From the NCBI GenBank assembly GCA_037892935.1, contig JAYXKI010000019.1:124001-188000 (forward strand): a stretch of 64,000 nt of DNA. The letters are read 5' to 3'. Every line of letters begins with the position of its first letter. Positions within the stretch are counted from its first letter, which is position 1. Source of the stretch: Phlebopus portentosus. Its lineage: Eukaryota > Basidiomycota > Agaricomycetes > Boletales > Boletinellaceae. Under the pieces are notes generated by a model. It was not told where the DNA came from. It did not search any database and saw nothing but the letters and a program-made list of their open reading frames with translations. Position numbers and translations under genes: made by a program. This document shows, piece by piece, positions 10,001-29,014 of this stretch.

Positions 10001-10934
10001 ACGTCTGGCCCACTATGATGTTCTTTGCAAGTGCGTGGCTCTCGCAAGCAACCAACTTATCTGGAGCAGAAACAACTCCTTCATCACCATCAGCAGTGCT
10101 GGCAACGCGAGCGGGCACAGTGGAAGCCTGAAGTGACTTTTCGAGGTTAGCAATAGCATTGCTGCGGGGAAGCAATGCCACTTGAATGTGCTCTGGAACC
10201 AGAACACCTTGTTGAATTAGGTGGAAGGCATGAATCTGAGCACGCAGGGCAGCAACTTGCTCTTCCGTGAAGCCAACAGGTGAGGGAGGTGATTGCTCAG
10301 TGGTGCGTGCTGCATTTGTCGAGCTGTTTTGTTCATGCTTAACTTGTCTGACTTCTTCTGGCTCCGAATCACTGTCTACAAGATTGATCACTTCGACTTC
10401 CTTGGATCCACTGTTGTGGGTCTCAGAATTCGAGTCTGCAATGAAGAAAAAAAGTTGTTGCGCACTATTTTGGAGCCTGCTTAAAAAACTGCCGTATGTC
10501 TGGAATTCCTTCATTGCGCAACTTGGTTGTCTCTTTGGTGACCTTGGCCCTATGAAAACGCTGGGTACGTGGTGCTTGCTTTGAGGGAATGGTACTGTAT
10601 TTAACAGGTCTAGGACGAGCTTTCAACCGTGCAAGCCAGTCCTTCAGGCCATTCTGAAGTCTTTCAAAGAGGTCTCCTGCCTGCGAGGTAAACTCTTCAT
10701 TCTCCAAATCTCTATCATTGTCACTATCTGTCATTGTAGCAGATGCAATTGAAACTTCATCTGAGCTGCGAGTTTCAAAATCTGCTTCACTGTTCTCATC
10801 CGAGACAGCAATGAGCATAAGTGCCTGATCATATGTCAGAAAATTTTTATACTAATTCATGATGCCCTCACAGTCTCTCTGCTCTTCTTAAGATTGTCTG
10901 TTCTTGCTTTATCCTTCTTTGAACGGCGGCCCAT
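7070..10934 (-). pseudogene. Tc1/mariner-like DDE transposase, five exons, one in-frame nonsense codon
   Basis: The reconstructed exons are 10934-10872, 10824-10466, 10410-8005, 7954-7268 and 7214-7070 (introns 47, 55, 50 and 53 bp). They sum to 3,660 bases, exactly 1,220 codons. The protein starts MGRRSKKDKART and has an acidic, repeat-rich N-terminal half and a C-terminal DDE domain. Its motifs are THDESTFYAND (near 8145), FAFDNATIHS (near 7810), HCELNFIEQCWG (about 7375-7405) and KRYHGHR near the end. The last intron has a GC donor (gcaagt at 7267). An in-frame TGA at 7509-7507 lies between the second Asp and the catalytic Glu, so it removes the Glu. It follows CGC and fits a CGA-to-TGA change at a CpG. 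The 10465 donor/10411 acceptor junction is chosen because it keeps frame and size; it is the least certain. Host role: none, mobile-element enzyme. Confidence 0.85.
9211..9900 (-). repeat. In-frame 90-bp tandem minisatellite (about 8 units) inside the transposase gene
   Basis: The phrase ttctccgcaattcca recurs at exact 90-base steps from about 9237 to 9867. Each unit encodes 30 residues, of the form HGIAENIMFDQSSST followed by a variable half. Two unit types alternate (TGTRVLTGA versus TVTRTLHAR), so the higher-order period is about 180 bp. Flanking copies of AFDVALDMDMLEEV near 9160-9200 and 9940-9990 suggest the array grew inside a larger duplication. Confidence 0.93.
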
Positions 10935-14291: not shown

Positions 14292-14518
14292 CTACTGGGG
14301 CAGAGGCCGTCTTGATGTGACAATGGAACGGTAGTGCTCGGGAATCGAATCGACCGTGCACAAGTTCTTCCGTACGAGGGCGCACAGGGCCGCGACGATT
14401 TTGTCGTCCTTTTTCTTGATGGTTGATACTGCAGGTAAGCTCGTGTCCATTTTTCGAAGCTTCTTAAGCTGATCGGTCAATTGTTTGACGTTCAATTCCA
14501 CCAGCTCCGTCGGAACGT

Positions 14519-16237
14519 TGTAGACTATCAGACTCTCCTAGACAGGGACAAAGGCGGCGGCGGCGGCGGCGTTCGACCACAGGGAGGCGATGTCAAAGGT
14601 GTCGAGAGGAAAAAGGGGAGGTCCTACCAGATCTACAGACTACCTACAGGCTTTCAGAAGCGACACTCAGCTCAGATGTACAAGGATCTGGCCGTGAGGG
14701 CAGATCCGCCGCGCCTTCGAATAACTCGCCGCGGCGATCCGGGCCTCGGCGACTGTATAGGGATCGCCGAGTCCGACTGAACCGGCGAAGGGGTCGCAGC
14801 GGCGGAGTGGGTGCGGGGCCGGCGGAGGTTCGCACCAGTGCAATTCCGCCTGGTAGTCGGGGAGATGACGTCGGAACGACACAGAGAGGGTGCGGGAGAG
14901 AGAGAGTCGACACCACTTAAAAGGGGAGTAGTGTCGGCGGTGGAACGACGCGGAGGCGGCGGAGGCGGCGAGAAGTGGGAGACTGGACTCAGTCGAAAAG
15001 GGGCGCCGGCGCCGACGGAAAGGGTGAGCACAAGAAGAGTGACAGCTGCGTCGAGGCGTCGACGAAGTATAACAGATGCCTAGAAGAGTGACGGCTGCGT
15101 CGAGGCGTTGAGGAAGAATCACAAATGTTCAGGGGCCGAGCGGCGGCGGAGGCTAGAGAGAGAGAGACGGCGATGCAGATATGAGTGGGACGTCCCCGGA
15201 GCGATTACTAGACGAGTGACAGCTGCGCAGAGGGGAGACGACCAGGGCGGCGAATGAGCTCGGCGGCTTCTATCCTGTGAGATCCGGGGCCACGCCGTCA
15301 GGACGGGATCGGCGAGGGCACGTGACCGGGAGTTCGCCCGATCCGGCTGTCTGATTCTTTTGTATATACTGGTTTCTTGGAGGAGGCTTCTTTACTTGTG
15401 GTTGGTCTCTGGTAGCTGCGTTCTAGAGTGTATATCTGCTGTTTTTTAGGATAGATACATGCTCTCTATATATACTATGAGTCCTTGATAAGAAATATCA
15501 CTTAAAGCGGCGGGCGGCGAGGCGTGACAGGCGCGCCGCGACGGCGGGGGCCGCCGCCGAGATGCGCCGCCAAGCCACCAAGACCTAGGGGCGCCCCAAT
15601 CGGAACGGCGGAGTGCTGGTACGTCGTGTCGAATGTCGGGGCCGTTCGGATCGGTCAGGGCGCGCTCTATATAGATCTGAAACGCCAAGGGGTCGAATAA
15701 AACTAAAAAGGGGAATATACGGACGGCCGCCGGGTGCGCTACTGCGCTCGGCGTACAATGTGGGATGGTAAGAATATGAAACAATCAACGAAATGGACCT
15801 GAGATTGGCTATCGTTCACCCAGCTGGCGCGGCGGCGGGCATACACCTCCGCGATGGCGCGATATACATCCGCCGCAGCGTATCCGGCCGCCGTGCGAGC
15901 ACTTCCGAAGCCCGGAGTCACCGGATTCGGCGGAACCGTTCTTGAGAGAGGCTGGAGAAGGGGAACTAGGATTTGGTCGAAGGGAGGACAAGGTGATCAT
16001 AAGATAGGAGTGGAGGCGTCGCCGCCGGTTCGTATGGTCGGCGGCGGCGGCGGCGTGGATGCTGTTCCTAGGCCGCCGAAGGTCCGGCGGCCGCTGAGCA
16101 GGCTGTATTATGGGTAACGGCGGCGAAGGCTGGTTTGCTGACAATAGTACGCGGGGTGTCCTGGGTATGGCATAGGGGAGTACCGCCCTTACAGGCCTGT
16201 GCCGCTGGACCGGTACAGGTTAGTGCGGCGCACTACA
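14519..16237 (-). repeat. 3' LTR of the Gypsy element
   Basis: It is 1,719 bp, TG...CA ended, and has the same length as the other LTR. It contains a CGG run near 14549 and a 49-bp tandem duplication (15033-15081 and 15082-15130, shared GTGAC-GCTGCGTCGAGGCGT core). It also contains TATATA-type motifs near 15360 and 15470 that could form a promoter for minus-strand transcription; that last point is inference. Confidence 0.93.
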
Positions 16238-16246
16238 TCTCCTTCT
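16238..16246 (-). other. Polypurine tract
   Basis: On the element's sense strand the nine bases AGAAGGAGA directly precede the 3' LTR. This is the expected place and composition for the plus-strand primer of reverse transcription. Confidence 0.7.
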
Positions 16247-16362
16247 GACGAAGTAAAAAAATGATTAAAAAAAAATGCTGGGTAGTGTAGGGGAGGTATT
16301 TAGGCGAAGTTGAGCGGGGGTTGTGATGTAACTGGGTGGTATGTCTGTGACTTGCTCCTGGA

Positions 16363-17952
16363 TTAGTCTTCGGTTGTGAGATCGATCATCGGCGGATCGT
16401 GGATTGGTGCGGCGGTGTGCGGTGGAGGGTTGGCTCTGTCCGCCGCATCTTGTTGAGGTACGTTGTTGAGGTATGGGTGATGTTCAATGGATTCCCGAAG
16501 CTCGGCGAGGTGCTCTTCGATGTCCTGGGCGGCTGCGATTGCTGAGAGCGAATACTGTTGTGCTTGGAGTATAATGGCGATGACGTTGGCGGCGCAGTCG
16601 CGTATATCATCGTCGCCGCGCTCGTCGAAGAGGCGTAAGACTTGGATTATGGCATTGTGGGATAGGTCTGAGGCGGCGTCGGAGTAAATGACGGCGTTTT
16701 CGAGTGCAATAGGCCCTTCTCTGAGGATGGCGAGGGGGGCATTGGGTAGTACGCCATCGCCGATAGGCGTGCCGAGAAGTATGGGGATCGTAGTGAGGGC
16801 GCCGCCGATGCGGAGCGTTTCTCGGATGCGGCAAACGAGTGTCGCTTTGTTGGCAGGCGTCAGATGGTGTCTGGCGAAGAGTTCGGGGATGATCTGAAGC
16901 ATCGCGGGGACGTGTCTGGCGGGGAACGGCATCGCCGCAGGAAACGCGTCGGCGAGGAGGTCGCAAAATGATCCCCAGTTTCCTCCGGAGAGGCGTGGGT
17001 CTTGACAGAGGAGTTGCTGGGCGTCCGGCGAGGCCCAAATGTACAGCAGGAAGATTAGAGTCGCCGTGTCGGGGCAGGGGTGATGAAAACTGCGAAGGGC
17101 GGCGATGAGAATATTTGGTAGAGCGGTGTAATCAGGGTGCCATGGGTAGAGGAGCATGGGGTGCCCGGGAAGTGTGATTAATTGGGCGAAGTTGAAATCT
17201 AAAAGGTGTTGGGCATGGCGGGGGAAGTGGACTGGGTGCGGGACTTGGAGTAGTGGTGTCGCCGGTGCGAATGGGAACGCTTCGGCGAGGCTGGGAACCA
17301 GCTGGGGCATGTTGTAAGGAGCGCCGATGGTATTCGTAATCTGTAGGGTAGATGTTTTGGGGGCGGTGAGTAGTTCGCCGACCGCTTTATATATTTTCGG
17401 CGAGTGTTTTCCGGGTTGGCCGGAGGGTATGACGGCTTTTGGCGAGGTGAAGTTGCCAGTATTATAGTGTAGAGGCCAATATAGGCGAAAGCCGAAGTAG
17501 TGTTCTAATGGAAGGGGGCCTAGGCGAAGGTGTTTCGTGTAGGCGGATCGTCGGCGGGACGAGTAAGTGGGATGGGAGGCTAGCGGCGAGGCTGGTTCGC
17601 CGGTAGTTCGGGTATGGTGGCCTGTAGCGGCGTGGGGCGAAGCGAACTTCGAATGGGAGGGGGCCTGGGCGAAGGAGTTTCGTACAGGCCGGTCGTCGGC
17701 GGGACGAGTGAGTGGGATGGGAGGCTCGCGGCGAGGCTGGTTCGCCGGTAGTTCGGGTATGGTGGCCTGTAGCGGCGTGGGGCGAAGCGATCTTCGAATA
17801 GAAGGGGGCCTGGGCGAAGGAATTTCGTATAGGCGGGTCGTCGGCGGGACGGGCTTCGATTTAGAAGGGAGTTCGGAAGTAAAGTTTAAATGGTTAATCA
17901 TGGAGGGTGTCGTCATATCATGATCTTGATCTGGTACCAGATATGGATACAA
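16363..17952 (-). CDS. Extra sense ORF of the Gypsy element, unknown function (529 aa)
   Basis: It lies downstream of pol and before the 3' LTR, in the place an env-like or accessory ORF would occupy. The first 150 residues are Pro/Arg/Ser-rich and low in complexity. From about residue 150 the sequence is hydrophobic-helical (LLDFNFAQLITLPGHP, PDTATLIFLLYIWASP) and looks like a folded all-helical domain. It ends MIDLTTED, which resembles a SUMO-interaction style hydrophobic-acidic tail. I see no signal peptide or clear membrane anchor, so an envelope role is not supported. The start is the first ATG of the frame; an upstream exon cannot be excluded. The 5' end is built partly from a 146-bp DNA repeat read in different frames. 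Confidence 0.55.
   Translation of the reverse strand: MYPYLVPDQDHDMTTPSMINHLNFTSELPSKSKPVPPTTRLYEIPSPRPPSIRRSLRPTPLQATIPELPANQPRREPPIPLTRPADDRPVRNSFAQAPSHSKFASPHAATGHHTRTTGEPASPLASHPTYSSRRRSAYTKHLRLGPLPLEHYFGFRLYWPLHYNTGNFTSPKAVIPSGQPGKHSPKIYKAVGELLTAPKTSTLQITNTIGAPYNMPQLVPSLAEAFPFAPATPLLQVPHPVHFPRHAQHLLDFNFAQLITLPGHPMLLYPWHPDYTALPNILIAALRSFHHPCPDTATLIFLLYIWASPDAQQLLCQDPRLSGGNWGSFCDLLADAFPAAMPFPARHVPAMLQIIPELFARHHLTPANKATLVCRIRETLRIGGALTTIPILLGTPIGDGVLPNAPLAILREGPIALENAVIYSDAASDLSHNAIIQVLRLFDERGDDDIRDCAANVIAIILQAQQYSLSAIAAAQDIEEHLAELRESIEHHPYLNNVPQQDAADRANPPPHTAAPIHDPPMIDLTTED
17508..17862. repeat. ~146-bp tandem direct repeat (about 2.4 copies)
   Basis: The phrase cgtcggcgggacgag or its close variant recurs near 17548, 17694 and 17840, with the intervening gctggttcgccggtagttcgg also repeated. 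A period of about 146 is not a multiple of three, so successive copies encode different peptides in the sense ORF, yet no stop arises. Confidence 0.85.
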
Positions 17953-18450
17953 TGGCCTTGTAGTCAGGGGTAGTGGTACATCGGAAATACAATTCGGCGG
18001 GATTTTGGCGGTCCGGGAACCAGTCGGGGACGCCAGGTAGTTAACTAGGGCGGTGTAGGTCGTAGCATATAGGTTGAGGATTTGTTAATGGGTGTAGGTA
18101 CGGCTAGGGTAGGGTGTGCGGCGATATTTGATGATCGGCGGGGGGGATCGGCGTAGAATGTTGTATCGGCCGGCTTGGCAGGGGTCTGGAAGGTTGGGGC
18201 TGTGTTGTGGCGGGGTTCGGCGGATTGTTCCGGCGAGTTTTGGAGGGGGGAGAGTCGCCGAGGGGTTTGTGGAATTTGAGTGGAGATTGCGGCGGAGCAG
18301 TGGGGAGGATTTGGTAATTGATTGGTAAAAAGGGGGCGGGGAGGTCGCGTGTATGGAGGGCTGAAATCGGAGTTTGAATTGGGTGCGGCGAGGATATAGA
18401 CGACGGGGACTCGTGTCTGAGTTCCCCGTTTCTCTTTTTCTCTTTCCACC
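17953..18450. promoter_or_regulatory. Divergent spacer between the sense accessory ORF and the antisense gene
   Basis: About 500 bases separate the start of the minus-strand ORF (17952) from the plus-strand start (18451), which point away from each other. A shared internal promoter is inferred from this arrangement only. No clear TATA box was found. Pyrimidine-rich ctctttttctctttcc directly precedes the ATG at 18451, as is common at fungal start regions. Confidence 0.35.
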
Positions 18451-20117
18451 ATGGCGCCGACGATTCTCAGCGTCAGCAGCAGCAGCGGCAGCGACAGCGA
18501 CAGCAGCAGCAACAACAGCAGGGAGGGGTCGGAGGCTCCCTCCGACCAGATGGAGGTGGACGCCGGGGCGGCGACGGGGGCTCCTGCCGCGGGCGGGATG
18601 TCGCGGGCCCCCAGCGGGCAAGAGGTCCCGCCGGAGTCGCAGGGGGAGACGGAGGAGGAGGGTGGGGAGGGGGGGGGGGGGGGGGAGGGGGGGGAGAACT
18701 GGACGCGGCCGTGTGGGCGGCCATTACGGCGGTGAGGGGGTGGATCGAGCGGGCCCGAAACGATGAGGGGCCCGCTGCCGATGAGCTCGATGGGCTCTTG
18801 GTAAATTTGCGTTCCCTTGATAATAACCGTGTGAGCTGACGATCTGGTTTACTTTTTCAGAAGGGGCTTGGGGAGCGCTTCCCCACGCTATCCGACGATG
18901 CGAGGGCTGAAAAGCCCGAATATTATTGCGCGGGGAGGTGGTTGGTGAACCGGGCGACGGTGGTGCGGATGGCCGCCGGGGAGGCTAAGGACGCCGCCGA
19001 GGCGTTGGACAAGGCCGCCCAGTCGGAGGTGAATCGCCTCCGACGCGTCGCGGAGAGGCTGGCCGAGCGCCGGGAGGAGGAGGCTCGTGAGGAGGCGAAG
19101 CGGAGCGCGGCGAAGGTGGCCGAGGAGGCGAAAGCCTCTTTCCTCAAGACGCTTGCCACCCTGCGAGTTGGGGGCCCGGAGGTCGTCGAGGCCTTCTGTA
19201 GGTCCTCAGGGCGCGATGAGGCGGGGAACCTGGTAAGTCGTTGTCTTGAATCTTGTTTTTTACTGTCTCTGATAATATCTTCTTAGGTCGCGGCGCCTAA
19301 AACGAGCACCAAAGCGAAGGTGCAGGCGCGTCCCGCGGCCAGGCCGGCGACGGGAAAGACGATTACTCTTCCTGGGTCGTCGATCCCTGGTCTTGAGGTG
19401 GCGGGTTCGTCCAGCGAGACGCTCAAGGGGGAGAGTGGTCGAGTGACGCGAGGGGGACGCTCGGGGACGGTCACGGGAAAGACCATTACTCTTGAGGTTG
19501 AGTCTGATGAGGGGTCAACGCGAGCGAAAAGGTCGAGTGGAAAGGAGGTATATGTCGATGTGTGTTTTATGTCCTGGATCTTATTCTTCACTGACATGTT
19601 TCGTTTCTAGGTGCCTCCCCTTCCGAAGCGCGTACGTGAGCCGGTGGTCGAGCCGCCGGCGAAACGAGCAAGAGCGCCGGGAGCGGCGGCCTCGGGTGGG
19701 GGCAGGGCGAAAGAGGAGGCGACAGGAAGACGGGACGGGGCGGTGAGTGCTGTCTTGAATTTTGTTCGTGACACTCTCTGACTATAATATTCAGAGGGAG
19801 GAGGGGGTTGGGAGTTCGAGAGGGTCGGGCGGCTCCCCAGGGGTCAGAGCCGCCGCCTCCTCGAGTTCGTGTCGCCGGGGTGCGAGCGGTGCATCGGGCG
19901 TGGGGAGGTGTGCACGAGGCGCCCGCCGGCGCTCCTGTGCCAGGCGTGCCGGGTATCGCACCACCGGTGCGATATCTTGGAGTCGGACGTGACCTTCCTG
20001 GCGCAGCAGGAGGTCCTCGCTCTCCGCCGGCAGCTGGAGGGGATGGAGTCGACGTTGGCGGGAGAGAGTGCGGGTGGGGGGGTGGAGGAAAAGGCCCAGG
20101 GTGAACGCCGTGGATAG
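18451..20117 (+). CDS. Antisense spliced gene inside the retrotransposon; C-terminal Zn2Cys6-type cysteine pattern
   Basis: Exons are 18451-18800, 18861-19232, 19287-19547, 19611-19742 and 19797-20117 (introns 60, 54, 63 and 54 bp). All junctions after exon 1 are in phase 0. Exon 1 has one frame break: a run of about 17 G (18669-18685) must be one longer, or two shorter, for the frame to pass into ELDAAVWAAITAVRGWIER; then the product is 478 residues. The parts are an acidic Ser/Glu-rich start (MAPTILSVSSSSGSDS), a charged coiled coil (AERLAERREEEAREEAKR), a basic linker with PPLPKRVREP, and near the end C-x2-C-x6-C-x8-C-x2-C-x6-C (CERCIGRGEVC to RVSHHRC). This spacing fits fungal binuclear zinc clusters, which are normally N-terminal. 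It is transcribed against gag-pol and converges on the pol 3' end. The role could be DNA or nucleic-acid binding; this is inference. Confidence 0.68.
18669..18685 (+). repeat. Poly-G tract in exon 1 of the antisense gene
   Basis: A run of about 17 G, followed after one A by eight more G, sits exactly where the open frame changes. It could be a real slippage site, an assembly length error or an inactivating change in this copy. Confidence 0.85.
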
Positions 20118-20554
20118 GCGGCGAGCCAAACGACGCAAACGGCGTCGGCTCGCGGTCTTCGGCGACCATGAAGCGCCCTTGGGCCGAAAAAATATTAAAA
20201 AAATAGGAAAAATATAAAAGTACAAAAATATTGTATTTTTCTTTTTCTTGTGTACTATAGTGGCTTGTAATAACAAGCCGAATGTTTTTCTTGTGAGGAT
20301 GGTTCTTTGTGAGATCAGGGAATGTAAGATTGAGATGGGCTGGAGTGAAATAGGGAGGATAGGCGCCCTAAAAATAGCGCCGGGGCCGAAAGAATGACTT
20401 GAGTAAGGTGAAAATGTGGGAGGGGGTGACTCGGCGTCTCGCCGCAGTCGTTTGGGTGATGATTGGAGAGAGTGAAGATAGCGGCGGGTCCGAATAGGTG
20501 ACTTAGGGAATGTGTATATAAGGGAGAGGGTGATTATGAGGCTTCGGCGGATCT
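20118..20554. terminator. AT-rich convergent 3' region shared by antisense gene and pol
   Basis: The plus-strand antisense gene ends at 20117 and the minus-strand pol ends at 20555, so both transcripts run into this spacer. An AT-rich island (about 20185-20245, with several aaaaata/tattttt blocks) stands out from the GC-rich element and may serve as a two-way polyadenylation region. No coding was seen. Confidence 0.4.
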
Positions 20555-23500
20555 TCATAAGTTGGATTCGGCGTCTAGGTCATCCGCCGCGGTCTCTTGT
20601 GCTAGGTTGTCGAGTTCCGGCGTGGATTTCTGAGTGAGGTCTTCGACTGAGTCGATGATTCGAGTGCGTGCGTGGTAGGGGATAACTCTGAATGCTGCGT
20701 AACGAAGTGCTGAAATGGCGCCGTTTGCTTCGGCGAGAACGTAGGATCCTCCTTTGGTTCGCCGCACGACAATCATGGGCCCTAGGTACTTCGGCTTTGT
20801 CTTCCTGTTCAGCTCGTTTTCGATCTGGGAGTTCCGGACCAGCACAAGTGAGCCGGGGGCGAAATTGTAATCTTTAATTGTTGCGGCGTGGGTTTTCTCG
20901 AAGTCCTGTATGGATTTGAAACGCCCCTGGATGACGGATTCCTTGACTCGTTGGAGGTCCTCGGGACGTTTCTGGAGTGCCCTTGCTCTCGCCGCGATGA
21001 GTTGTGCGTCGGACATCTTGGAGGTGACCGCCGGCGAGATGTACGTCTGTTCGGCGAGGTCGAAGGGGAGTACTGGTTCGACGCCGTGGGCCATAAAGTA
21101 TGGGCTATAGCCTGTGCGGCGTTGAATCGTGATTCGTTCGGCCCAAATGGCGTGGTATATGTGCTGGGACCACTTGTCTGGGCTTGAGTCGGCGAGCTTC
21201 ATTAGGGTTTCTCTAAGGTCCCGGTGTCGCCGCTCAATGATTCCGTTGGCTCTTGAGTTGTACGGCGAGATTCGAATGTGCTGGACATTGTATTTGGCGA
21301 GAAGGCGGGGTAGGTCCTTGGAGAATGAGGCGCCGTTGTCGGTTACGATCTCCTCGACTCGTCCCCATCTTGACAAGATATCTTCAAAAACGAAGCGTGC
21401 TATCGAGGCGGCGTTATCTTTGCGCAGCGTTCGGAATTCGGGGTATCCGGTGAGGGAGTCTCGGGCCTGAACGATATACTTGAATCCGCCGGAGGGCGGC
21501 ATTAACATGACGTCTATATGCACCCTGGAGAATAGCGGCGCGGGCGTCGGGCTTTGCGGCGTGGTATATATTTTCGTAAACTGCCTCGTTTGGCATTGGT
21601 GGCAGGTTCTGATATACCATTTGATGTCCTGATGCATTCCTGGCCACCAGAATCGGTCTTGAATCGTTGTTCTGACAGAGAAGAAGCCTTTGTGGCCGAG
21701 TTCGTCGTGGGCAGTTCTGATAATGGAAATTCGGCGTTCCGGCGGAATAACGAGTGCGGCGTGACCTTTGTCGTTCTTTCTGTAGAGTTCGCCGTGCTGT
21801 AGGAAGAAACGAGTGGCTCGGCGTACGAACTGTTTGAATTGGGCGTCTGAAAAATCGGCGGGGCGGGATGGGGCGGCGAGAAATTTCTTGATACAATCGA
21901 GGTCTTTGAATCCTTTTTGTGAGGCTTTGTGATCGGGGAGTTGTACGGGTTCGCTGTTTGGGGTATAGGCCGTGTCGGAAAGGTCTTGGTTTAGGAAGGA
22001 GTATTGATGGTCGATCCATTCTTCGAAGCCTTCGTCTCGCGGCGGATCGGTTTGTGCGGCGCCGCGGCGTGATAGGCCGTCTGGGCCGAGGTGTTTGGGC
22101 GCCGGCGTATGAATGATCGTGAAATTGAAAAGTAAGATGCCGGCGATCCATCTATTGATAGTGGCGTTGGGTTGGAGGTCTGGGTTGTTAATCATGCCTT
22201 TAATATAGCTGGCGTCGACTTCGACGAAAAAGTGATCGATGCCGACGAGGTATATGCGCGCCTCATATAGAGCTCTGAAGAGGCCGAAGAGTTCTAGCTT
22301 CGCCTGGGAGTAGTTTCGTTCTCTGTTGTTCCAAGTTCCGGACATGAAACGGGATGGGACCCTTTCGCCGTTTTCGCCGAGCTGTAACAAGATGGCGCCG
22401 TAGCCATGAACGGAGGAGTCTACACAGAAATGAACAGGTTGTCCTGACTCGTAGTCAATAGAACGAATGGCGCCGGAGGATGCTACGGCGTGTTTTAGTA
22501 GATCCATAGATCGGCGGGCGTCTTCGTCGAATAGGAAGGGCTGGTCTTTGCAGAGTAGTTTGTTGAGACCGGCGGATAGTCTGGCGTAGTTCTTCACGAA
22601 GTGTCTAAGGACGCCGGCCGTACCTAAGAATGCCCGAACATCGTGGACATCCCGCGGCGGAGGCCAATCCATTATCGCCTTGACCCTGGATGCGTCTGGG
22701 ACTCGGCCGGCGTAATTACAGGTGTGTCCTACAATGACTGCTTCTGGTGCGGCGATGATGAGTTTCTTACCCGAGACAGTGGCGCCGACTACTTTGAGGC
22801 GTTGGAGGACGCGGTTGACGTCGTTGAGATGTTCCCAGATGAAGCGGCGGATGTTCGGGTTCCCCGGAATGGTTTCGTAGTTTCCGGCGGCGAGCTCGTA
22901 TCGGGATTTAGGCCCTTTTACAGGAATATTGTCGATGTATGGGATACAGACGTGGGGTATTTCATCTTTGAGTACGAAGGTGACGTCGGCGTGCATAATT
23001 TGTTGCGAGTTGGTGTATCCCATAGGAATCGACGTGAGGCGAAACGCGCCGAGAGGTGTTTGGAATGTTGTGAGGTCGCGGGATCGTACGTCGAGCTTTC
23101 TCTGGTCGAAGGCGACGAATAGATCGAGTGTGGTGTAGCAGGCATGGCCGCCGAAGGTCTCGGCGATGTGTTCTGTGGGGTAAGGGACGGAGGGGTCGCG
23201 TATGGAGACTTTGTTGAGTGGCTGGAGGTCGTGTACAAGTCGAAGGGATTTTCCATCCTTTTTAACGACGCAGAACCATCGGGAGCGGTAAGAGGAATTG
23301 GACGGCTCGTAGACGCCGGAGTTAATTTTGTCTTTGATTATGCGAACTACTTCGTTGAAGATCCCCGGCGGAATAGGGATGTTTTTCATTACCCACGGCG
23401 TATGGTCGACAGTAGGAATTAGAACCGGCGCGAAGTATTGATAGTCGAGGGAGCCCTTTTCTGTTTCGTCCCAAGCTAGGCCGTCTTCATGTTGTAGAAG

Positions 23501-24040
23501 GGTCCAGTAGGCGAGATTCTTTTCTTCCTCACTGAGGAAGCCTGTTGGGTCGATGTCTAGGACGTCGAAGCGTTCTTGTGTAAAGCGGCGTCCTGGAATG
23601 AACTCCGGCGGATCGATCGGGAGCTTCGGTAGGTCTGTGAGCGGCTGCGGGTGTGATTTGCGTATGATGCGGTAGTCCTCTGGAAGGGTCGCCGATATAG
23701 GTTTGGTTCGTTGGGCGACCTTTTTGTACTTGTAGGCGTGCCCGGCCGGTTGAGCGGCCGTGGTATTAAGAGTGCTGTTGGAGCGGGGTATTCTGTTGCG
23801 TACGGGGAGTGATTCATCGTCGAAAATAGAGTTAATGAAGAAGGCTGGATGTTTTTGGGCTTTGTTCTGGGCTGTGAAACCCTTTTCGGCGGATCGATCA
23901 GAAAAAGAGGTGGAGATATCTATGGTGCGGGGATTGAAGGCGATAGTTACAGTCGCCGGGCCGTGATGGAGCACATATGCGTCGGGTATGGTTGGGGGTA
24001 TACGCCGCATATGTTCCGGCGGACGCCGCTGGGACGTCAT
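20555..24040 (-). CDS. pol: Gypsy pol: reverse transcriptase, RNase H, integrase (1,161 aa)
   Basis: The order is typical of Ty3/Gypsy. Reverse transcriptase occupies about residues 220-420, with TTLDLFVAFDQ and VVKKDGKSLRLVHDLQPLN. RNase H occupies about 540-660, with FCVDSSVHGYGAIL. Integrase occupies about 760-960: zinc-binding HDELGH and CHQC, core HIDVM, VTDNG and GIIERRHRD. The reverse transcriptase catalytic box reads YIDN (residues 368-371, bases 22939-22928) where the family has Y/F-x-D-D. The second Asp is therefore Asn (AAT instead of GAT/GAC), which would be expected to weaken or abolish polymerisation. The reading frame is otherwise full length. The ATG at 24040 overlaps the gag-pro stop as ATGA. 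Confidence 0.93.
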   Translation of the reverse strand: MTSQRRPPEHMRRIPPTIPDAYVLHHGPATVTIAFNPRTIDISTSFSDRSAEKGFTAQNKAQKHPAFFINSIFDDESLPVRNRIPRSNSTLNTTAAQPAGHAYKYKKVAQRTKPISATLPEDYRIIRKSHPQPLTDLPKLPIDPPEFIPGRRFTQERFDVLDIDPTGFLSEEEKNLAYWTLLQHEDGLAWDETEKGSLDYQYFAPVLIPTVDHTPWVMKNIPIPPGIFNEVVRIIKDKINSGVYEPSNSSYRSRWFCVVKKDGKSLRLVHDLQPLNKVSIRDPSVPYPTEHIAETFGGHACYTTLDLFVAFDQRKLDVRSRDLTTFQTPLGAFRLTSIPMGYTNSQQIMHADVTFVLKDEIPHVCIPYIDNIPVKGPKSRYELAAGNYETIPGNPNIRRFIWEHLNDVNRVLQRLKVVGATVSGKKLIIAAPEAVIVGHTCNYAGRVPDASRVKAIMDWPPPRDVHDVRAFLGTAGVLRHFVKNYARLSAGLNKLLCKDQPFLFDEDARRSMDLLKHAVASSGAIRSIDYESGQPVHFCVDSSVHGYGAILLQLGENGERVPSRFMSGTWNNRERNYSQAKLELFGLFRALYEARIYLVGIDHFFVEVDASYIKGMINNPDLQPNATINRWIAGILLFNFTIIHTPAPKHLGPDGLSRRGAAQTDPPRDEGFEEWIDHQYSFLNQDLSDTAYTPNSEPVQLPDHKASQKGFKDLDCIKKFLAAPSRPADFSDAQFKQFVRRATRFFLQHGELYRKNDKGHAALVIPPERRISIIRTAHDELGHKGFFSVRTTIQDRFWWPGMHQDIKWYIRTCHQCQTRQFTKIYTTPQSPTPAPLFSRVHIDVMLMPPSGGFKYIVQARDSLTGYPEFRTLRKDNAASIARFVFEDILSRWGRVEEIVTDNGASFSKDLPRLLAKYNVQHIRISPYNSRANGIIERRHRDLRETLMKLADSSPDKWSQHIYHAIWAERITIQRRTGYSPYFMAHGVEPVLPFDLAEQTYISPAVTSKMSDAQLIAARARALQKRPEDLQRVKESVIQGRFKSIQDFEKTHAATIKDYNFAPGSLVLVRNSQIENELNRKTKPKYLGPMIVVRRTKGGSYVLAEANGAISALRYAAFRVIPYHARTRIIDSVEDLTQKSTPELDNLAQETAADDLDAESNL

Positions 24041-27000
24041 TGTCTAGGGGGGCGCTGTTTTTCTGTCCCGGCGCCGCGCTGAATCGTCGGGATCGACATG
24101 GTTTCGTTCGTATCGGGATGAGTAAGGTATAGCGTCTGTTCGCCGTCGGCCTCGTCTATGACCTGCGCCCTAGTGTGTACGAAAAACGGCCGGCCTAATA
24201 GTAACTGAAAGGGGGCCTTTTCGACGACCTGGACTTGGACAACAATAGAGAAGGCGCCTATGGTGAGTCTGACGCGAGGGATGAGTCCCGCCGAGCGTGA
24301 GGTTTGTCTGTCGGCGGTTTCTACTGTGATTGCTTGGCTCATTATCGTCGGGGAGCCGAGGTCCTTCCATACCTCTTTTGGCACGGCGATAAATGTCGAC
24401 CCCGAGTCGAGCAAAGCTTTTACTTCGAATTTATCATCGAGCCAGACCTCGATTTCGCGGAGGGGAATGTTCGGCGGGGCGACGGAAGGATCTTCGTCGC
24501 CGAAGTTAACCGGCGAGGTGGGCCTCGGGATTGAGGCGTACATTGCCATCTCGTGATCAGGATTTTCCCTAATTAGTTCTCGGCGCCCCGTGACGAATTC
24601 TTTGCACTTCTTTCTGATTTCGGGAGAGGCGGCGAGCAGGCTTCGGATCGGCAGGGTGACTTCCGAGTCCAGAATCTTGTCGAAAACGTTCGATACCGCG
24701 GCGTCATCGTATGCTGGTACGGTGGTTCGGTATTGTGGCTTCGGATCCGCCGCGTCGTCCCTGTGCGGCGCCGAGGGCGTCGGCGGCGGGGCCGGGCGTT
24801 GTCCGGGTGGTTTCCCCTTCTTGCCGTTATCTCCCCATTTCGGGTTGGGGTCTCGAGGCGGCTTTCTGGTGGGGATTTTGATTCCGTCGAAAACTTCTCT
24901 GGGGCCTGGCCGTCTTCCGGCGGCGGCGAAGGCATTCTGCGGTTGTTCGGGGGATTCTTCTTGTTCAAAAAGGAGCGCGACTCCGTCGCAGGCATCGTCG
25001 TCTGGGGGGTCTTCTGGGGTGATAGCCTCGAAGTAGTTCGATTCCTGGATTCGCGGCGGCAGGCCGTTCGGCGGATTTGTATTGTAGGCTAAGGGAGGCG
25101 GTGCCCGGTTGAGGCCCTGGTACATAGATTCCTGTGATGGAGGTTGTGACTGATACATGGATTGTTGAGTCGGCGGTTGTCCCTGATATGTAGGATCCTG
25201 CCTCGGCGGAGCGATCCTTGGCGGCGTGTCGGATACGGGCTGAATGGGGAGCTGGACGCCAACTGGTGCGTAGTTTGGATTCTCTATGAAGAGCTTATTA
25301 ATCCTGTCCAGTACTGACATCCCCGGTTCTCCCTGAGGAAGTCGGCCATTGGAGGGGTACAAGTACCCTTTGGCGTCGGCGAGCATGATTCCCCTCTGGA
25401 TCAGGGAGATCTTGGTGGGACAGTCGCGGGTAGAGTGCGTTACACTGGCGCATACGGCGCATTTTCCGTTAAATCTGGCTTGTCGGGGCTGCGGCGGGGC
25501 TCCTGCGGTTGGCGGCGGAGCGCGGCGGTTTGACTTCTCGGTGGCTTCACGGAGGGCGCGCATTTCCTGGATTAGGAGGGACACCCACGGTTCTTCTTGC
25601 TTGACCTGGGGTTGGTTGATGACTCCGTAGGCCGGAGCACCGGGCTGCGGCGGCGGCGTGTACGTCGTAACTTGTGTATAGGTGGGCATGGCCGCTGTCG
25701 CCGCATACATCAGTGGTTGGTCGGCGGTTGTGAGGCAGCCGCCGGTTAGGATGCGTTCTAGTTCTCTTACAACTGTGTCGATGTCCCAGGGCACGCCGGT
25801 AGGGTGGTCATGCTTGACAAACCGCAAATTAAGATCCAGCTCTCTGTTTAGCGTCGGGTGGAGGCCTTCTCTGAACATACGCTTCTGTTCGAACTCTGAT
25901 AGCATGCCGGCGTCGATAAGATACGAGGAGACGGTGATAAAGTTCCTATGGTATTCGCCGAGGGCGGCGGTGTTCAGCATAATTTGGTTGCGGCTTATGT
26001 TAATAAGGTTGTGGAGGTCGCCGAGTGTGTACTGGGTCGTAGCGTTTGGGTAGTACTGTAGGATAGCGTCTTTGAATGCCATAAAGTCGTTTCCTCTCGT
26101 TTCGGGCCTTTTGCACCATAGCTGATCGTCTTTAGCGTCGGCGTAGCATCTTGCCCAAGCGATCATTTGTGCATCTGTTAGGCCGGCGCTTCGTCCAAAT
26201 AGCCGGACTCTGTTAAAGAAGATGGGGATTTCCGCGGGGTCGCCGGAGGCGTTGAACTTCGGCGCGCGGCGGTCTCCCGGGTAGGGCATTGTAGTTCCCG
26301 GCACTGGTGGGTTGGGACCACTTAATGGATGGGTATCTGGGTCACTGAGGTCTGGGAGAGGGGGAAAGGCGCCCGCGGGGGTTGGTGCTGGTGCGGCATA
26401 GGCTGGTGCGGCGGGGGACGGCTGTTGGGGGGGCGGCGGGGTCGATCCTGAGGCTGCGGGGGGCGCGGCGGGAATGCCGGTATGGGTGCTGGTCATTGTT
26501 GGTATCGAGGCCGTCTTAGGAGGTGTACTGGGGGTGGGTGGTTGGGTGTTGTCAATTGGGGGGAGCCGCGGCCTCTGAGCTGGTGTCGGCGGCGTAAGAG
26601 GGGGGGGTGGGGAGAGCCTCGCCGATCGCTCTTCTTCGACGGGGGATAGTGGAGAGTCGGGGGTGATTGCGTGGCCGTGTACGAGGGAGTCGGGGACGTA
26701 AAGGTCGTCGTCCTCCTGTTCTTCTGCGGCAGAGTATAACTGTAGGCCGGTGCGGCGGTGGAGATCTGGGGGGTTGTCTATGTCGGAGAAGAGGTCGGTT
26801 TCGATGGGGCCGGTGGCTGGAGGTTCCTGGAGGGATATTGACAGGTCCTCGATGCCGCCGGGGACACGAACGTGAGTACTGGGGCGAATTTCGGATTCGC
26901 GGAGGTCTTTAGGAACGTGGATGAAACGAGGGGGAATTATAGGCGATATAGGGTGTGCGGCGGCGGTGCTTGCGCTTTCGCCAGGCGGTGGGTTGCGTGT

Positions 27001-27357
27001 AAAAGGAGTGATAGATGCTCTTCTGGGACGCCGGGTGGGTGGGTCGTCTGCGGCGATGGAGGCGCGTCGACGGTTCGGCGCGGACGGAGATCTGGGTGCG
27101 GTGGGACGGGGTTCTTCTGTTCGGCCTCTTGTAAAGAGTGTGGAATAATGGTATGGTTGGCCGGCGGTTGTGGCTGAGGCTGTTTGACTGTTTTCCGCCC
27201 TTCTTTGCAGCCTTAGTGAGTATCGCGTGCCCTTGGAAGGGCCTGAGATCGGTTGGAACGACACCTTTTTACCTCCCTCGCGGTGGGCTCCAAAATGTAG
27301 ACTATCAGACTCTCCTAGACAGGGACAAAGGCGGCGGCGGCGGCGGCGTTCGACCAC
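24037..27357 (-). CDS. gag: Gypsy gag-protease polyprotein (1,106 aa)
   Basis: The N-terminal third is Pro/Ser-rich and disordered. The capsid-like region follows PGDRRAPKFNASGDPAEI (about residue 355). The nucleocapsid has a CCHC knuckle CAVCASVTHSTRDC (about residue 635). An aspartic protease with ALLDSGSTFIAVP lies near 24390-24415. The frame is open from an ATG at 27357, which lies inside the 5' LTR, and it reads without a stop through the primer-binding site. The true start may be there, since transcription starts in the LTR, or at a later Met (MTSTHTG, about residue 290). The stop TGA (24039-24037) overlaps the pol ATG by four bases, favouring stop-and-restart over a classic -1 frameshift signal; that mechanism is inferred. 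Confidence 0.9.
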   Translation of the reverse strand: MVERRRRRRLCPCLGESDSLHFGAHREGGKKVSFQPISGPSKGTRYSLRLQRRAENSQTASATTAGQPYHYSTLFTRGRTEEPRPTAPRSPSAPNRRRASIAADDPPTRRPRRASITPFTRNPPPGESASTAAAHPISPIIPPRFIHVPKDLRESEIRPSTHVRVPGGIEDLSISLQEPPATGPIETDLFSDIDNPPDLHRRTGLQLYSAAEEQEDDDLYVPDSLVHGHAITPDSPLSPVEEERSARLSPPPPLTPPTPAQRPRLPPIDNTQPPTPSTPPKTASIPTMTSTHTGIPAAPPAASGSTPPPPQQPSPAAPAYAAPAPTPAGAFPPLPDLSDPDTHPLSGPNPPVPGTTMPYPGDRRAPKFNASGDPAEIPIFFNRVRLFGRSAGLTDAQMIAWARCYADAKDDQLWCKRPETRGNDFMAFKDAILQYYPNATTQYTLGDLHNLINISRNQIMLNTAALGEYHRNFITVSSYLIDAGMLSEFEQKRMFREGLHPTLNRELDLNLRFVKHDHPTGVPWDIDTVVRELERILTGGCLTTADQPLMYAATAAMPTYTQVTTYTPPPQPGAPAYGVINQPQVKQEEPWVSLLIQEMRALREATEKSNRRAPPPTAGAPPQPRQARFNGKCAVCASVTHSTRDCPTKISLIQRGIMLADAKGYLYPSNGRLPQGEPGMSVLDRINKLFIENPNYAPVGVQLPIQPVSDTPPRIAPPRQDPTYQGQPPTQQSMYQSQPPSQESMYQGLNRAPPPLAYNTNPPNGLPPRIQESNYFEAITPEDPPDDDACDGVALLFEQEESPEQPQNAFAAAGRRPGPREVFDGIKIPTRKPPRDPNPKWGDNGKKGKPPGQRPAPPPTPSAPHRDDAADPKPQYRTTVPAYDDAAVSNVFDKILDSEVTLPIRSLLAASPEIRKKCKEFVTGRRELIRENPDHEMAMYASIPRPTSPVNFGDEDPSVAPPNIPLREIEVWLDDKFEVKALLDSGSTFIAVPKEVWKDLGSPTIMSQAITVETADRQTSRSAGLIPRVRLTIGAFSIVVQVQVVEKAPFQLLLGRPFFVHTRAQVIDEADGEQTLYLTHPDTNETMSIPTIQRGAGTEKQRPPRQ
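27275..27292 (-). other. Candidate primer-binding site
   Basis: Three bases inside the 5' LTR edge the element sense strand reads TGGAGCCCACCGCGAGGG. It begins TGG, as expected for pairing to a tRNA 3' CCA. I could not match it with confidence to a particular tRNA, so the primer is unassigned. Confidence 0.55.
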
Positions 27358-29014
27358 AGGGAGGCGATGTCAAAGGTGTCGAGAGGAAAAAGGGGAGGTC
27401 CTACCAGATCTACAGACTACCTACAGGCTTTCAGAAGCGACACTCAGCTCAGATGTACAAGGATCTGGCCGTTAGGGCAGATCCGCCGCGCCTTCGAATA
27501 ACTCGCCGCGGCGATCCGGGCCTCGGCGACTGTATAGGGATCGCCGAGTCCGACTGAACCGGCGAAGGGGTCGCAGCGGCGGAGTGGGTGCGGGGCCGGC
27601 GGAGGTTCGCACCAGTGCAATTCCGCCTGGTAGTCGGGGAGATGACGTCGGAACGACACAGAGAGGGTGCGGGAGAGAGAGAGTCGACACCACTTAAAAG
27701 GGGAGTAGTGTCGGCGGTGGAACGACGCGGAGGCGGCGGAGGCGGCGAGAAGTGGGAGACTGGACTCAGTCGAAAAGGGGCGCCGGCGCCGACGGAAAGG
27801 GTGAGCACAAGAAGAGTGACAGCTGCGTCGAGGCGTCGACGAAGTATAACAGATGCCTAGAAGAGTGACGGCTGCGTCGAGGCGTTGAGGAAGAATCACA
27901 AATGTTCAGGGGCCGAGCGGCGGCGGAGGCTAGAGAGAGAGAGACGGCGATGCAGATATGAGTGGGACGTCCCCGGAGCGATTACTAGACGAGTGACAGC
28001 TGCGCAGAGGGGAGACGACCAGGGCGGCGAATGAGCTCGGCGGCTTCTATCCTGTGAGATCCGGGGCCACGCCGTCAGGACGGGATCGGCGAGGGCACGT
28101 GACCGGGAGTTCGCCCGATCCGGCTGTCTGATTCTTTTGTATATACTGGTTTCTTGGAGGAGGCTTCTTTACTTGTGGTTGGTCTCTGGTAGCTGCGTTC
28201 TAGAGTGTATATCTGCTGTTTTTTAGGATAGATACATGCTCTCTATATATACTATGAGTCCTTGATAAGAAATATCACTTAAAGCGGCGGGCGGCGAGGC
28301 GTGACAGGCGCGCCGCGACGGCGGGGGCCGCCGCCGAGATGCGCCGCCAAGCCACCAAGACCTAGGGGCGCCCCAATCGGAACGGCGGAGTGCTGGTACG
28401 TCGTGTCGAATGTCGGGGCCGTTCGGATCGGTCAGGGCGCGCTCTATATAGATCTGAAACGCCAAGGGGTCGAATAAAACTAAAAAGGGGAATATACGGA
28501 CGGCCGCCGGGCGCGCTACCACGCTCGGCGTACAATGTGGGATGGTAAGAATATGAAACAATCAACGAAATGGACCTGAGATTGGCTATCGTTCACCCAG
28601 CCGGCGCGGCGGCGGGCATACACCTCCGCGATGGCGCGATATACATCCGCCGCAGCGTATCCGGCCGCCGTGCGAGCACTTCCGAAGCCCGGAGTCACCG
28701 GATTCGGCGGAACCGTTCTTGAGAGAGGCTGGAGAAGGGGAACTAGGATTTGGTCGAAGGGAGGACAAGGTGATCATAAGATAGGAGTGGAGGCGTCGCC
28801 GCCGGTTCGTATGGTCGGCGGCGGCGGCGGCGTGGATGCTGTTCCTAGGCCGCCGAAGGTCCGGCGGCCGCTAAGCAGGCTGTATTATGGGTAACGGCGG
28901 CGAAGGCTGGTTTGCTGACAATAGTACGCGGGGTGTCCTGGGTATGGCATAGGGGAGTACCGCCCTTACAGGCCTGTGCCGCTGGACCGGTACAGGTTAG
29001 TGCGGCGCACTACA
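27296..29014 (-). repeat. 5' LTR of the Gypsy element
   Basis: It is 1,719 bp and collinear with the 3' LTR at a constant offset of 12,777 bases, with six differences seen. It contains the start of the gag reading frame and the same 49-bp tandem duplication (27810-27858 and 27859-27907). Confidence 0.93.

Follow-up and report, generated by a model that had tools for sequence, protein, structure and literature searches.

An intron-bearing antisense gene of Gypsy retrotransposons in Phlebopus portentosus encodes a putative zinc-cluster protein with swapped half-motifs

We describe a five-exon gene carried by a Ty3/gypsy retrotransposon in a 64,000-nucleotide stretch of the Phlebopus portentosus genome (assembly GCA_037892935.1, contig JAYXKI010000019.1, positions 124,001 to 188,000; the whole stretch is referred to here as the window, and coordinates without a contig are window positions). 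The gene (18451-20117, plus strand) lies opposite gag-pol, between pol and the 3′ long terminal repeat (LTR); it is conserved among the copies of the element and in predicted proteins of the genus Sanghuangporus, and the same arrangement recurs in two further Gypsy families of the same genome. Close to its C-terminus the product has a six-cysteine cluster that is related to the Zn2Cys6 domains of fungal transcription factors and that, as judged from profile comparisons, has the two halves of the domain in swapped order. We regard the gene as a real accessory gene of the element, and its product as probably a regulator that binds the element's DNA and acts on its transcription.

A spliced gene on the strand opposite gag-pol

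Exon 1 (18451-18800) begins with an ATG in the context ccaccATGG and encodes an acidic and serine-rich region, with a run of G residues at about 18660-18692; exon 2 (18861-19232) encodes a helical, coiled-coil-like region, exon 3 (19287-19547) a linker, and exon 4 (19611-19742) a basic linker. Exon 5 (19795-20117) ends in TAG and contains a conserved core, the six-cysteine cluster, and a short coiled-coil-like helix after the cluster (19974-20070, approximate limits) that is a possible dimerisation helix. The linker of intact copies has stretches rich in lysine and arginine, and no other transcription-factor domain was matched in the product by Pfam. All of these features are on the plus strand, and pol is on the minus strand, so that position and orientation are those of the antisense open reading frames between pol and 3′ LTR that have been called aORF-3R in plant elements.

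A DNA search of the genome (38.4 Mb in 23 contigs) gave 42 matches to the gene, 26 of them full-length, and we refer to these copies as family A. All four GT...AG pairs are kept in every one of the 26, the only change noted at the exon borders being an A instead of a G in the final position of exon 4 in one copy. Introns 1 (18801-18860), 3 (19548-19610) and 4 (19743-19794) are 60, 63 and 52 nt long, respectively, in all 26 copies, while intron 2 (19233-19286) is 54 nt in 22 copies and 55-71 nt in the rest. Because the splice sites are retained throughout and a protein from S. weigelae aligns over the whole product, ungapped at three of the four exon junctions, the splicing model is not a product of chance.

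The spliced frame is fully open from the ATG, with 472-478 codons for amino acids, in six of the 26 copies (L006, L010, L012, L018, L020 and L024); a further copy, L025, is open but has ATA in place of the ATG. The window copy has lost this frame twice, within the exon 1 G-run and close to where exon 5 begins, and reading from its ATG meets a stop after 94 codons. The G-run varies from 26 to 39 nt in the measured span across copies and often sets the reading frame; this may reflect a mutable tract or faulty assembly, and since long G-runs are error-prone, some of the frame breaks may be assembly artefacts. The gene is found downstream of pol and on the opposite strand in 28 of the 29 family-A pol matches of at least 2.1 kb (12 of the 41 rows of the pol search were excluded as short or distant), the sole exception being C5:2478896-2481196.

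An earlier note on this sequence, made from the letters alone, had described five plus-strand exons between pol and the 3′ LTR with good splice sites, encoding a coiled coil, an acidic region and, at the C-terminus, a C-x2-C-x6-C-x8-C-x2-C-x6-C cluster, and all of these hold in the intact copies. The spliced frame is intact in the six open copies but not in the copy in the window. The search that the note proposed for an intact homologue in other copies and other genomes is answered by those six and by the S. weigelae protein.

A predicted zinc cluster with swapped halves

The cluster spans 19881-19970, its cysteine codons starting at 19881, 19890, 19911, 19938, 19947 and 19968, and all six cysteines are kept in the 26 family-A copies, with two silent changes. 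Zn2Cys6 domains have the spacing C-x2-C-x6-C-x5-12-C-x2-C-x6-8-C, and the cluster conforms to it. As encoded, the intact core nonetheless scores 13.8 bits against the Pfam Zn_clus profile (PF00172), for which the cut-off is 21; the exon 5 frame of the window scores 11.4 bits (E 0.36), and the S. weigelae peptide gives no match in its natural order. The best stretch in natural order aligns the second half of the cluster with the start of the profile. Its first half, CERCIGRGEMC, is more like the second half of a usual Zn2Cys6 cluster, and its second half, CQACRVSHHRC, is more like the first.

When the halves are exchanged, the score rises to 29.8 bits (E 6.6e-7) for family A and 21.0 bits for S. 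weigelae. Loop length was considered as the cause of the difference and is ruled out: peptides in natural order with a shortened loop gave 12.4 bits, 13.0 bits and twice no match, and peptides in swapped order with the natural eight-residue loop gave 25.7 and 18.7 bits, so it is the order of the halves that matters and not the loop. Searches of the PDB give a similar picture. The swapped family-A peptide finds HAP1 (E 0.0012) and then PPR1, GAL4, LAC9 and PUT3 at E 0.028-0.55; the natural family-A peptide finds two unrelated matches only (E 0.71 and 1.2) and no Zn2Cys6 protein, and the natural S. weigelae peptide finds nothing. The cut-off is thus reached in the swapped order alone, the half-motifs do not follow the GAL4-like order, and an ordinary Zn2Cys6 domain is ruled out on that ground; the cluster is best described, on these profile and structure-database comparisons, as a predicted Zn2Cys6 with its halves swapped. 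The zinc-cluster type named in the earlier note therefore stands as to spacing and the zinc-cluster-like C-terminus, but not as an ordinary member of that class.

Related proteins in Sanghuangporus

The product of the open copy L012 was compared with 5.8 billion proteins and a profile search was added, each scoring about the best 8,000 candidates. The first search gave 22 matches: two proteins of Sanghuangporus sanghuang, one of S. weigelae (P0003), one of S. vaninii (P0004), and 18 of ubiquitin type. One of the S. sanghuang proteins is 97% identical over 52% of the antisense product. P0003 has 475 amino acids and is 46-48% identical (46% over 94% in the L012 search); it is collinear from end to end and has no gaps at exon junctions 1-3, and at junction 4 there are gaps within a few residues. 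In the exon 5 core 42 of 83 residues are identical between family A and S. weigelae, and the six cysteines have identical spacing. The profile search added P0023 of Sanghuangporus baumii (483 amino acids), which is collinear with the same junction pattern up to the start of the cluster.

The 18 ubiquitin-type proteins cover 7-16% of the query and are not relatives; we put them down to a short stretch of the exon 3 linker, TGKTITLEVE, that is identical to part of ubiquitin. The counterparts of this stretch are TLTGKTITL in S. weigelae, TLTGKAVIL in S. vaninii and LTGKTMGPVE in S. baumii. A region search with the C-terminus of P0003 (35 candidates) returned only P0003 itself, and a PDB search with the whole of P0003 gave a LAG1 homologue at best (E 0.0091) and LEU3 at E 4.6, none of which was accepted. 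With the S. weigelae core as query the P. portentosus genome yields 33 matches at E ≤10, all 33 of them open over the core; by their place and identity these appear to be copies of the family-A element, and there is no host paralogue among them.

Two structure models were obtained for the S. weigelae homologue, with mean predicted local distance difference test (pLDDT) values of 52.6 and 51.1, and they are informative for helices alone. A helix is predicted at residues 130-225, in the region encoded by exon 2, with pLDDT above 70 only at about 160-230 (block maximum 93), and another, following the cluster, at 435-462, with block values of 81-84 in one model and 67-70 in the other.

Two further Gypsy families with the same arrangement

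The arrangement recurs in two more Gypsy families of the genome, which goes beyond the earlier note. The pol of the first, family B, shares 57.7% identity with that of family A across 497 residues, and two other segments of it share 43-56%. Downstream of it, on the opposite strand, is a 523-codon frame with the cluster CDQCQKRGRDC-VGLPQRT-CAPCLKQAKGC, for which a model with two introns (52 and 47 nt) and 731 amino acids was built from one copy. Forty family-B pol copies were scored out of 138 candidates, and 39 have the opposite-strand six-cysteine frame at a distance of 1223-1312 nt downstream of where the pol query ends; the remaining copy has its pol split by a nested Gypsy element, with the frame on the far side of the insert. 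This nested element (L063, 2260-8914) has 459-bp LTRs that are 98.9% alike and, by eye, a chromodomain, and it has no six-cysteine pattern.

The family-B cluster protein has 96 matches in the genome. Of these, 67 are at least 70% identical and 25 are 26-36% identical (E up to 1e-3); the others are a match of 30% identity at C3:2959518 and three weaker ones. Fourteen of the 25 mid-range matches were fetched and all are of one type, family C, with a fifteenth in L065. The family-C pol (L065) is 78.9% identical to that of B over 398 residues and 50.5% to that of A over 1106, and at the one locus read the strand opposite pol encodes CERCARAGRVC-EGFPGQA-CDYCRTKARRRC; the best gene model there, from one copy and with near-equal alternatives, has three exons and 600 amino acids. 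Both clusters conform to the Zn2Cys6 spacing. Swapping the halves raises the Zn_clus score from no match to 14.3 bits in family B and from 6.8 to 18.0 bits in family C, both under the cut-off; with the natural loop the values are no match and 17.3 bits, respectively. Outside the cluster there is no similarity worth naming between the A and C products. Scans of IMG/VR with the family-B frame and pol found no relative.

The match at C3:2959518 belongs to a single-copy locus (L102; C3:2959485-2960129 of the genome, G000) with a swapped cluster, PCSRCARAGIACAGKEGRACFTCRAHRQGC, of the kind shared with B and C, which scores 23.5 bits when swapped. No pol or gag was matched within the 5.5 kb fetched, and L102 is a possible host gene, either a source of the module or a domesticated copy. 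Outside the window, C19:108156-108413 is another weak match to the L102 cluster (30%, E 0.0026).

Selection and decay

The copies decay mostly by C-to-T changes at CpG, and for this reason counts of nonsynonymous (N) and synonymous (S) changes were judged against mutations of the same types placed at random; many such tests were made and the P values are uncorrected. For family B we used 20 of the 67 matches at 70% identity or more, hand-picked across the range (one of 21 was dropped for length). Among non-CpG changes in the cluster region that are shared by at least two of the 20 copies there are 5 N and 11 S, where 10.6 N are expected, giving a ratio of 0.23 (P 0.004); for the other two reading frames the ratios are 2.95 and 6.95, and with CpG changes included the ratio is 0.61 (P 0.025). 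Changes found in single copies give 0.89, and 0.53 without CpG, neither of which is significant. The family-B cluster region is thus under purifying selection. In family A constraint on the antisense frame is suggestive, and pol at shared sites has a ratio of 0.05-0.33; the family-A counts were made both on all rows and after removal of L022 and L026, the two copies furthest from the window copy over the whole aligned stretch.

The element and its surroundings

The element occupies 14519-29014 on the minus strand. Its 3′ LTR (14519-16237) and 5′ LTR (27296-29014) are 1719 bp each and align over their full length with six mismatches, and the same ACGT is present on both flanks, at 14515-14518 and at 29015-29018, as a target site duplication, as expected of an LTR retrotransposon. 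A gag-protease frame (24037-27369, stop to stop), the 5′ part of which overlaps the LTR, matches DUF4100 and an aspartyl protease, and a CCHC-like knuckle is visible in gag by eye; the pol frame (20555-24043) has reverse transcriptase, RNase H and integrase, so that the domains follow the Ty3/gypsy order. Just inside the 5′ LTR, at 27270-27295, is a possible primer binding site, which reads TTTTGGAGCCCACCGCGAGG on the minus strand.

A further minus-strand frame of 573 codons, ORF3 (16363-18084, stop to stop), separates the antisense gene from the 3′ LTR. Its first in-frame ATG is at 17916, head-to-head with the antisense ATG and about 530 bp from it, and it has no Pfam match at E 1. For ORF3 the N/S ratio at shared sites was computed for eight combinations of rows and cut-off; six of them give 0.38-0.59 (P 0.0035-0.03), and the remaining two 0.82-0.88. 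Its 5′ part contains a 145-nt unit three times in tandem (17467-17901), the later units being 82% and 61% identical to the first. The 3′ LTR contains two 46-nt repeats that are 87% alike (15033-15127), with a third similar stretch seen by eye at about 15207 (GTGACAGCTGCG-like), and these repeats are candidate binding sites for an element-encoded protein. Elsewhere in the window, 7779-10622 on the minus strand is a 947-codon frame with tandem repeats of 90-nt period, the C-terminal part of which resembles a DDE-type transposase or endonuclease by eye.

What the product may do

The reading that we favour, and consider probable, is that the gene is a genuine accessory gene of the Gypsy element, spliced antisense, and that its product is an element-DNA-binding regulator of element transcription. 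The gene would be transcribed against gag-pol and then spliced, and its introns persist because the RNA that is reverse transcribed comes from the other strand. The product, laid out as an acidic N-terminal region, a long helix, a basic linker, a swapped Zn2Cys6 and a second short helix, would enter the nucleus and dimerise; its cluster would contact the element's own DNA, and the bound protein would set element transcription. From the sequence we infer that the protein binds zinc and DNA, that the element is its target, and in which direction it would act. DNA binding is the likeliest reading of the product. Acidic regions are more usual in activators, and because of the acidic region and the CpG-directed decay that the copies undergo, activation or protection from silencing seems somewhat more likely than repression.

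Several observations weigh against this reading. By the fixed gene model 20 of the 26 family-A copies, including that in the window, are not open. Of the five homologous predictions, only P0003 and P0002 have the cluster, and P0001, P0004 and P0023 have a different predicted C-terminus, which we ascribe to decay or misprediction; the structure models are poor in the cluster. When swapped peptides were shuffled with their cysteines fixed, two of 12 still matched Zn_clus (18.6 and 19.3 bits) and none of the 12 reached 21, and none of two shuffles of natural peptides matched. Cysteine spacing as the sole cause is therefore rejected for the family-A peptide, but not clearly for the others: the swapped scores of S. 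weigelae (21.0), B (14.3) and C (18.0) are not clear of the shuffles, and spacing alone carries part of the swapped score. Single cysteine changes are found in two of the 20 family-B copies, and a cysteine change or a stop in the cluster in five of 14 family-C copies. CGG-type sites are not convincingly enriched in the LTR (121 CGG plus CCG, against 99.3 in shuffles), and the best spacing in a scan for CGG pairs has P 0.007 among 41 tests. The cysteines are conserved in family A, but their codons give few CpG targets for replacement and the retention is weak on its own; coding constraint is found in the family-B cluster region, but in family A the test is weak, the five-exon frame giving ratios of 0.49-0.83 with P 0.02-0.27 in twelve combinations of rows and cut-off; and homologues elsewhere were found as Sanghuangporus predictions, but none outside that genus among the roughly 8,000 best candidates, which limits the reach of the search.

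Other roles for the protein are less likely. It might be a self-limiting repressor that binds the element and lowers its transcription or transposition, so that copies restrain one another. The anatomy is that of a regulator here too, and the loss of the full frame in most family-A copies together with the stronger constraint on pol could arise if losing a repressor helps a copy; yet such a gene would be hard to retain in three divergent families through selection on the element alone, and the acidic region points away from it. We think it unlikely. Distinctly unlikely, in our estimation, is an accessory replication factor that binds nucleic acid for nuclear import, integration or packaging and does not regulate transcription. 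In maize, the antisense product of Grande is found in the nucleus, and proteins of this kind have been proposed to help move the pre-integration complex into it (PMC7264820); the lysine- and arginine-rich linker stretches would suit such a function; the cluster, however, resembles sequence-specific DNA-binding domains, and gag already seems to carry a zinc knuckle.

That the gene is a mere passenger, taken up by an ancestral element from a host zinc-cluster gene and without function since, is quite improbable: the single-copy L102 could be a source or a domesticated copy, but the gene is kept in nearly every pol copy of families A and B, is present in a third family, and is under purifying selection in B. 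An effect at the level of RNA, in which double-stranded RNA formed through antisense transcription would feed silencing or would mask the gag-pol RNA, is more improbable still. PMC7264820 discusses antisense transcripts with such roles in other retroelements, and the heavy C-to-T decay at CpG makes the element a probable methylation target, but a collinear protein with six cysteines in another species, and the frame constraint in family B, call for a protein. Chance open frames opposite element DNA are scarcely credible; GC-rich DNA does yield long chance frames, as a six-frame list of this stretch illustrates, but the splice sites kept in all copies, the matching junctions across species and the clusters of two more families refute this explanation.

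A broader and more tentative proposal, to which we give somewhat less than even weight, is that a mushroom Ty3/gypsy lineage has its own antisense, intron-bearing transcription factor built on the swapped cluster, that this module would be a distinct, element-borne DNA-binding family following the DNA of the element that carries it, and that single-copy host genes such as that at C3:2959485-2960129 would be derived from or ancestral to the module. Antisense genes of LTR retrotransposons have long been known without a function, and a recognisable DNA-binding module makes function testable; dozens of copies of several families in one genome raise the question of whether an element's regulator activates, shields or restrains it. 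A further question to which the swapped cluster is relevant is how much rearrangement the pseudo-symmetric Zn2Cys6 fold tolerates. There are hypothetical proteins of mushrooms that have similar cysteine clusters, and similar genes may sit unrecognised among "hypothetical proteins", since the domain model misses the swapped order.

Comparison with known systems

The closest parallels in position are the plant Ty3/gypsy aORF-3R, antisense frames between pol and the 3′ LTR that include Grande gene23, RIRE2, Retand (TRP28) and PvRetro13, as described in passages of PMC7264820 and PMC11963269. As there presented, they share with the gene described here their position and orientation, presence in most copies (28 of 29 in family A, 39 of 40 in family B), spread over related families, and tandem repeats located in that region. 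DNA binding is also supposed for the TRP28 product of Retand, a likeness to the product proposed here; unlike the latter, the plant frames are given in those passages TRP28, SMC, a few other domains or none, and no zinc cluster. The word "intron" does not occur in PMC7264820 or PMC11963269, though the former advises looking for spliced antisense transcripts.

Among fungi, the Boty element of Botrytis cinerea has an extra antisense gene, brtn (Zhao et al. 2011, as cited in PMC7264820, PMC8365987 and PMC4227169). Like the gene described here, it lies antisense in a fungal LTR element, after pol and before the 3′ LTR, but Boty-like elements are in an ascomycete, and the likeness is one of position and orientation as cited. 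An antisense gene in a fungal retrotransposon is accordingly on record already, in brtn, while the suggestion of the earlier note that one with a zinc-cluster-type product is undescribed stands within the open-licence literature searched: among the top matches in titles and abstracts we found neither a zinc-cluster antisense retrotransposon gene nor a swapped Zn2Cys6, which is not proof of absence.

A functional analogy, and that only, can be drawn with the VANC anti-silencing proteins of Arabidopsis VANDAL transposons, which the passages of PMC5735166 and PMC10398659 describe as transposon-encoded, sequence-specific DNA-binding proteins acting on their own element. Fungal DNA transposons, for their part, carry TET/JBP genes that are thought to aid escape from methylation (PMC12730594). 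The product resembles fungal Zn2Cys6 transcription factors such as GAL4, HAP1, PPR1 and PUT3 in its two C-x2-C-x6-C half-motifs, the helix after the cluster and the acidic region, and differs from them in the swapped halves, the place of the cluster near the C-terminus, and its carriage by a retrotransposon. VANDAL elements are plant DNA transposons and differ in this from the Gypsy element here. Antisense accessory genes of LTR elements are thus already known, and what appears to be new is a product with a swapped zinc cluster, spread over several families.

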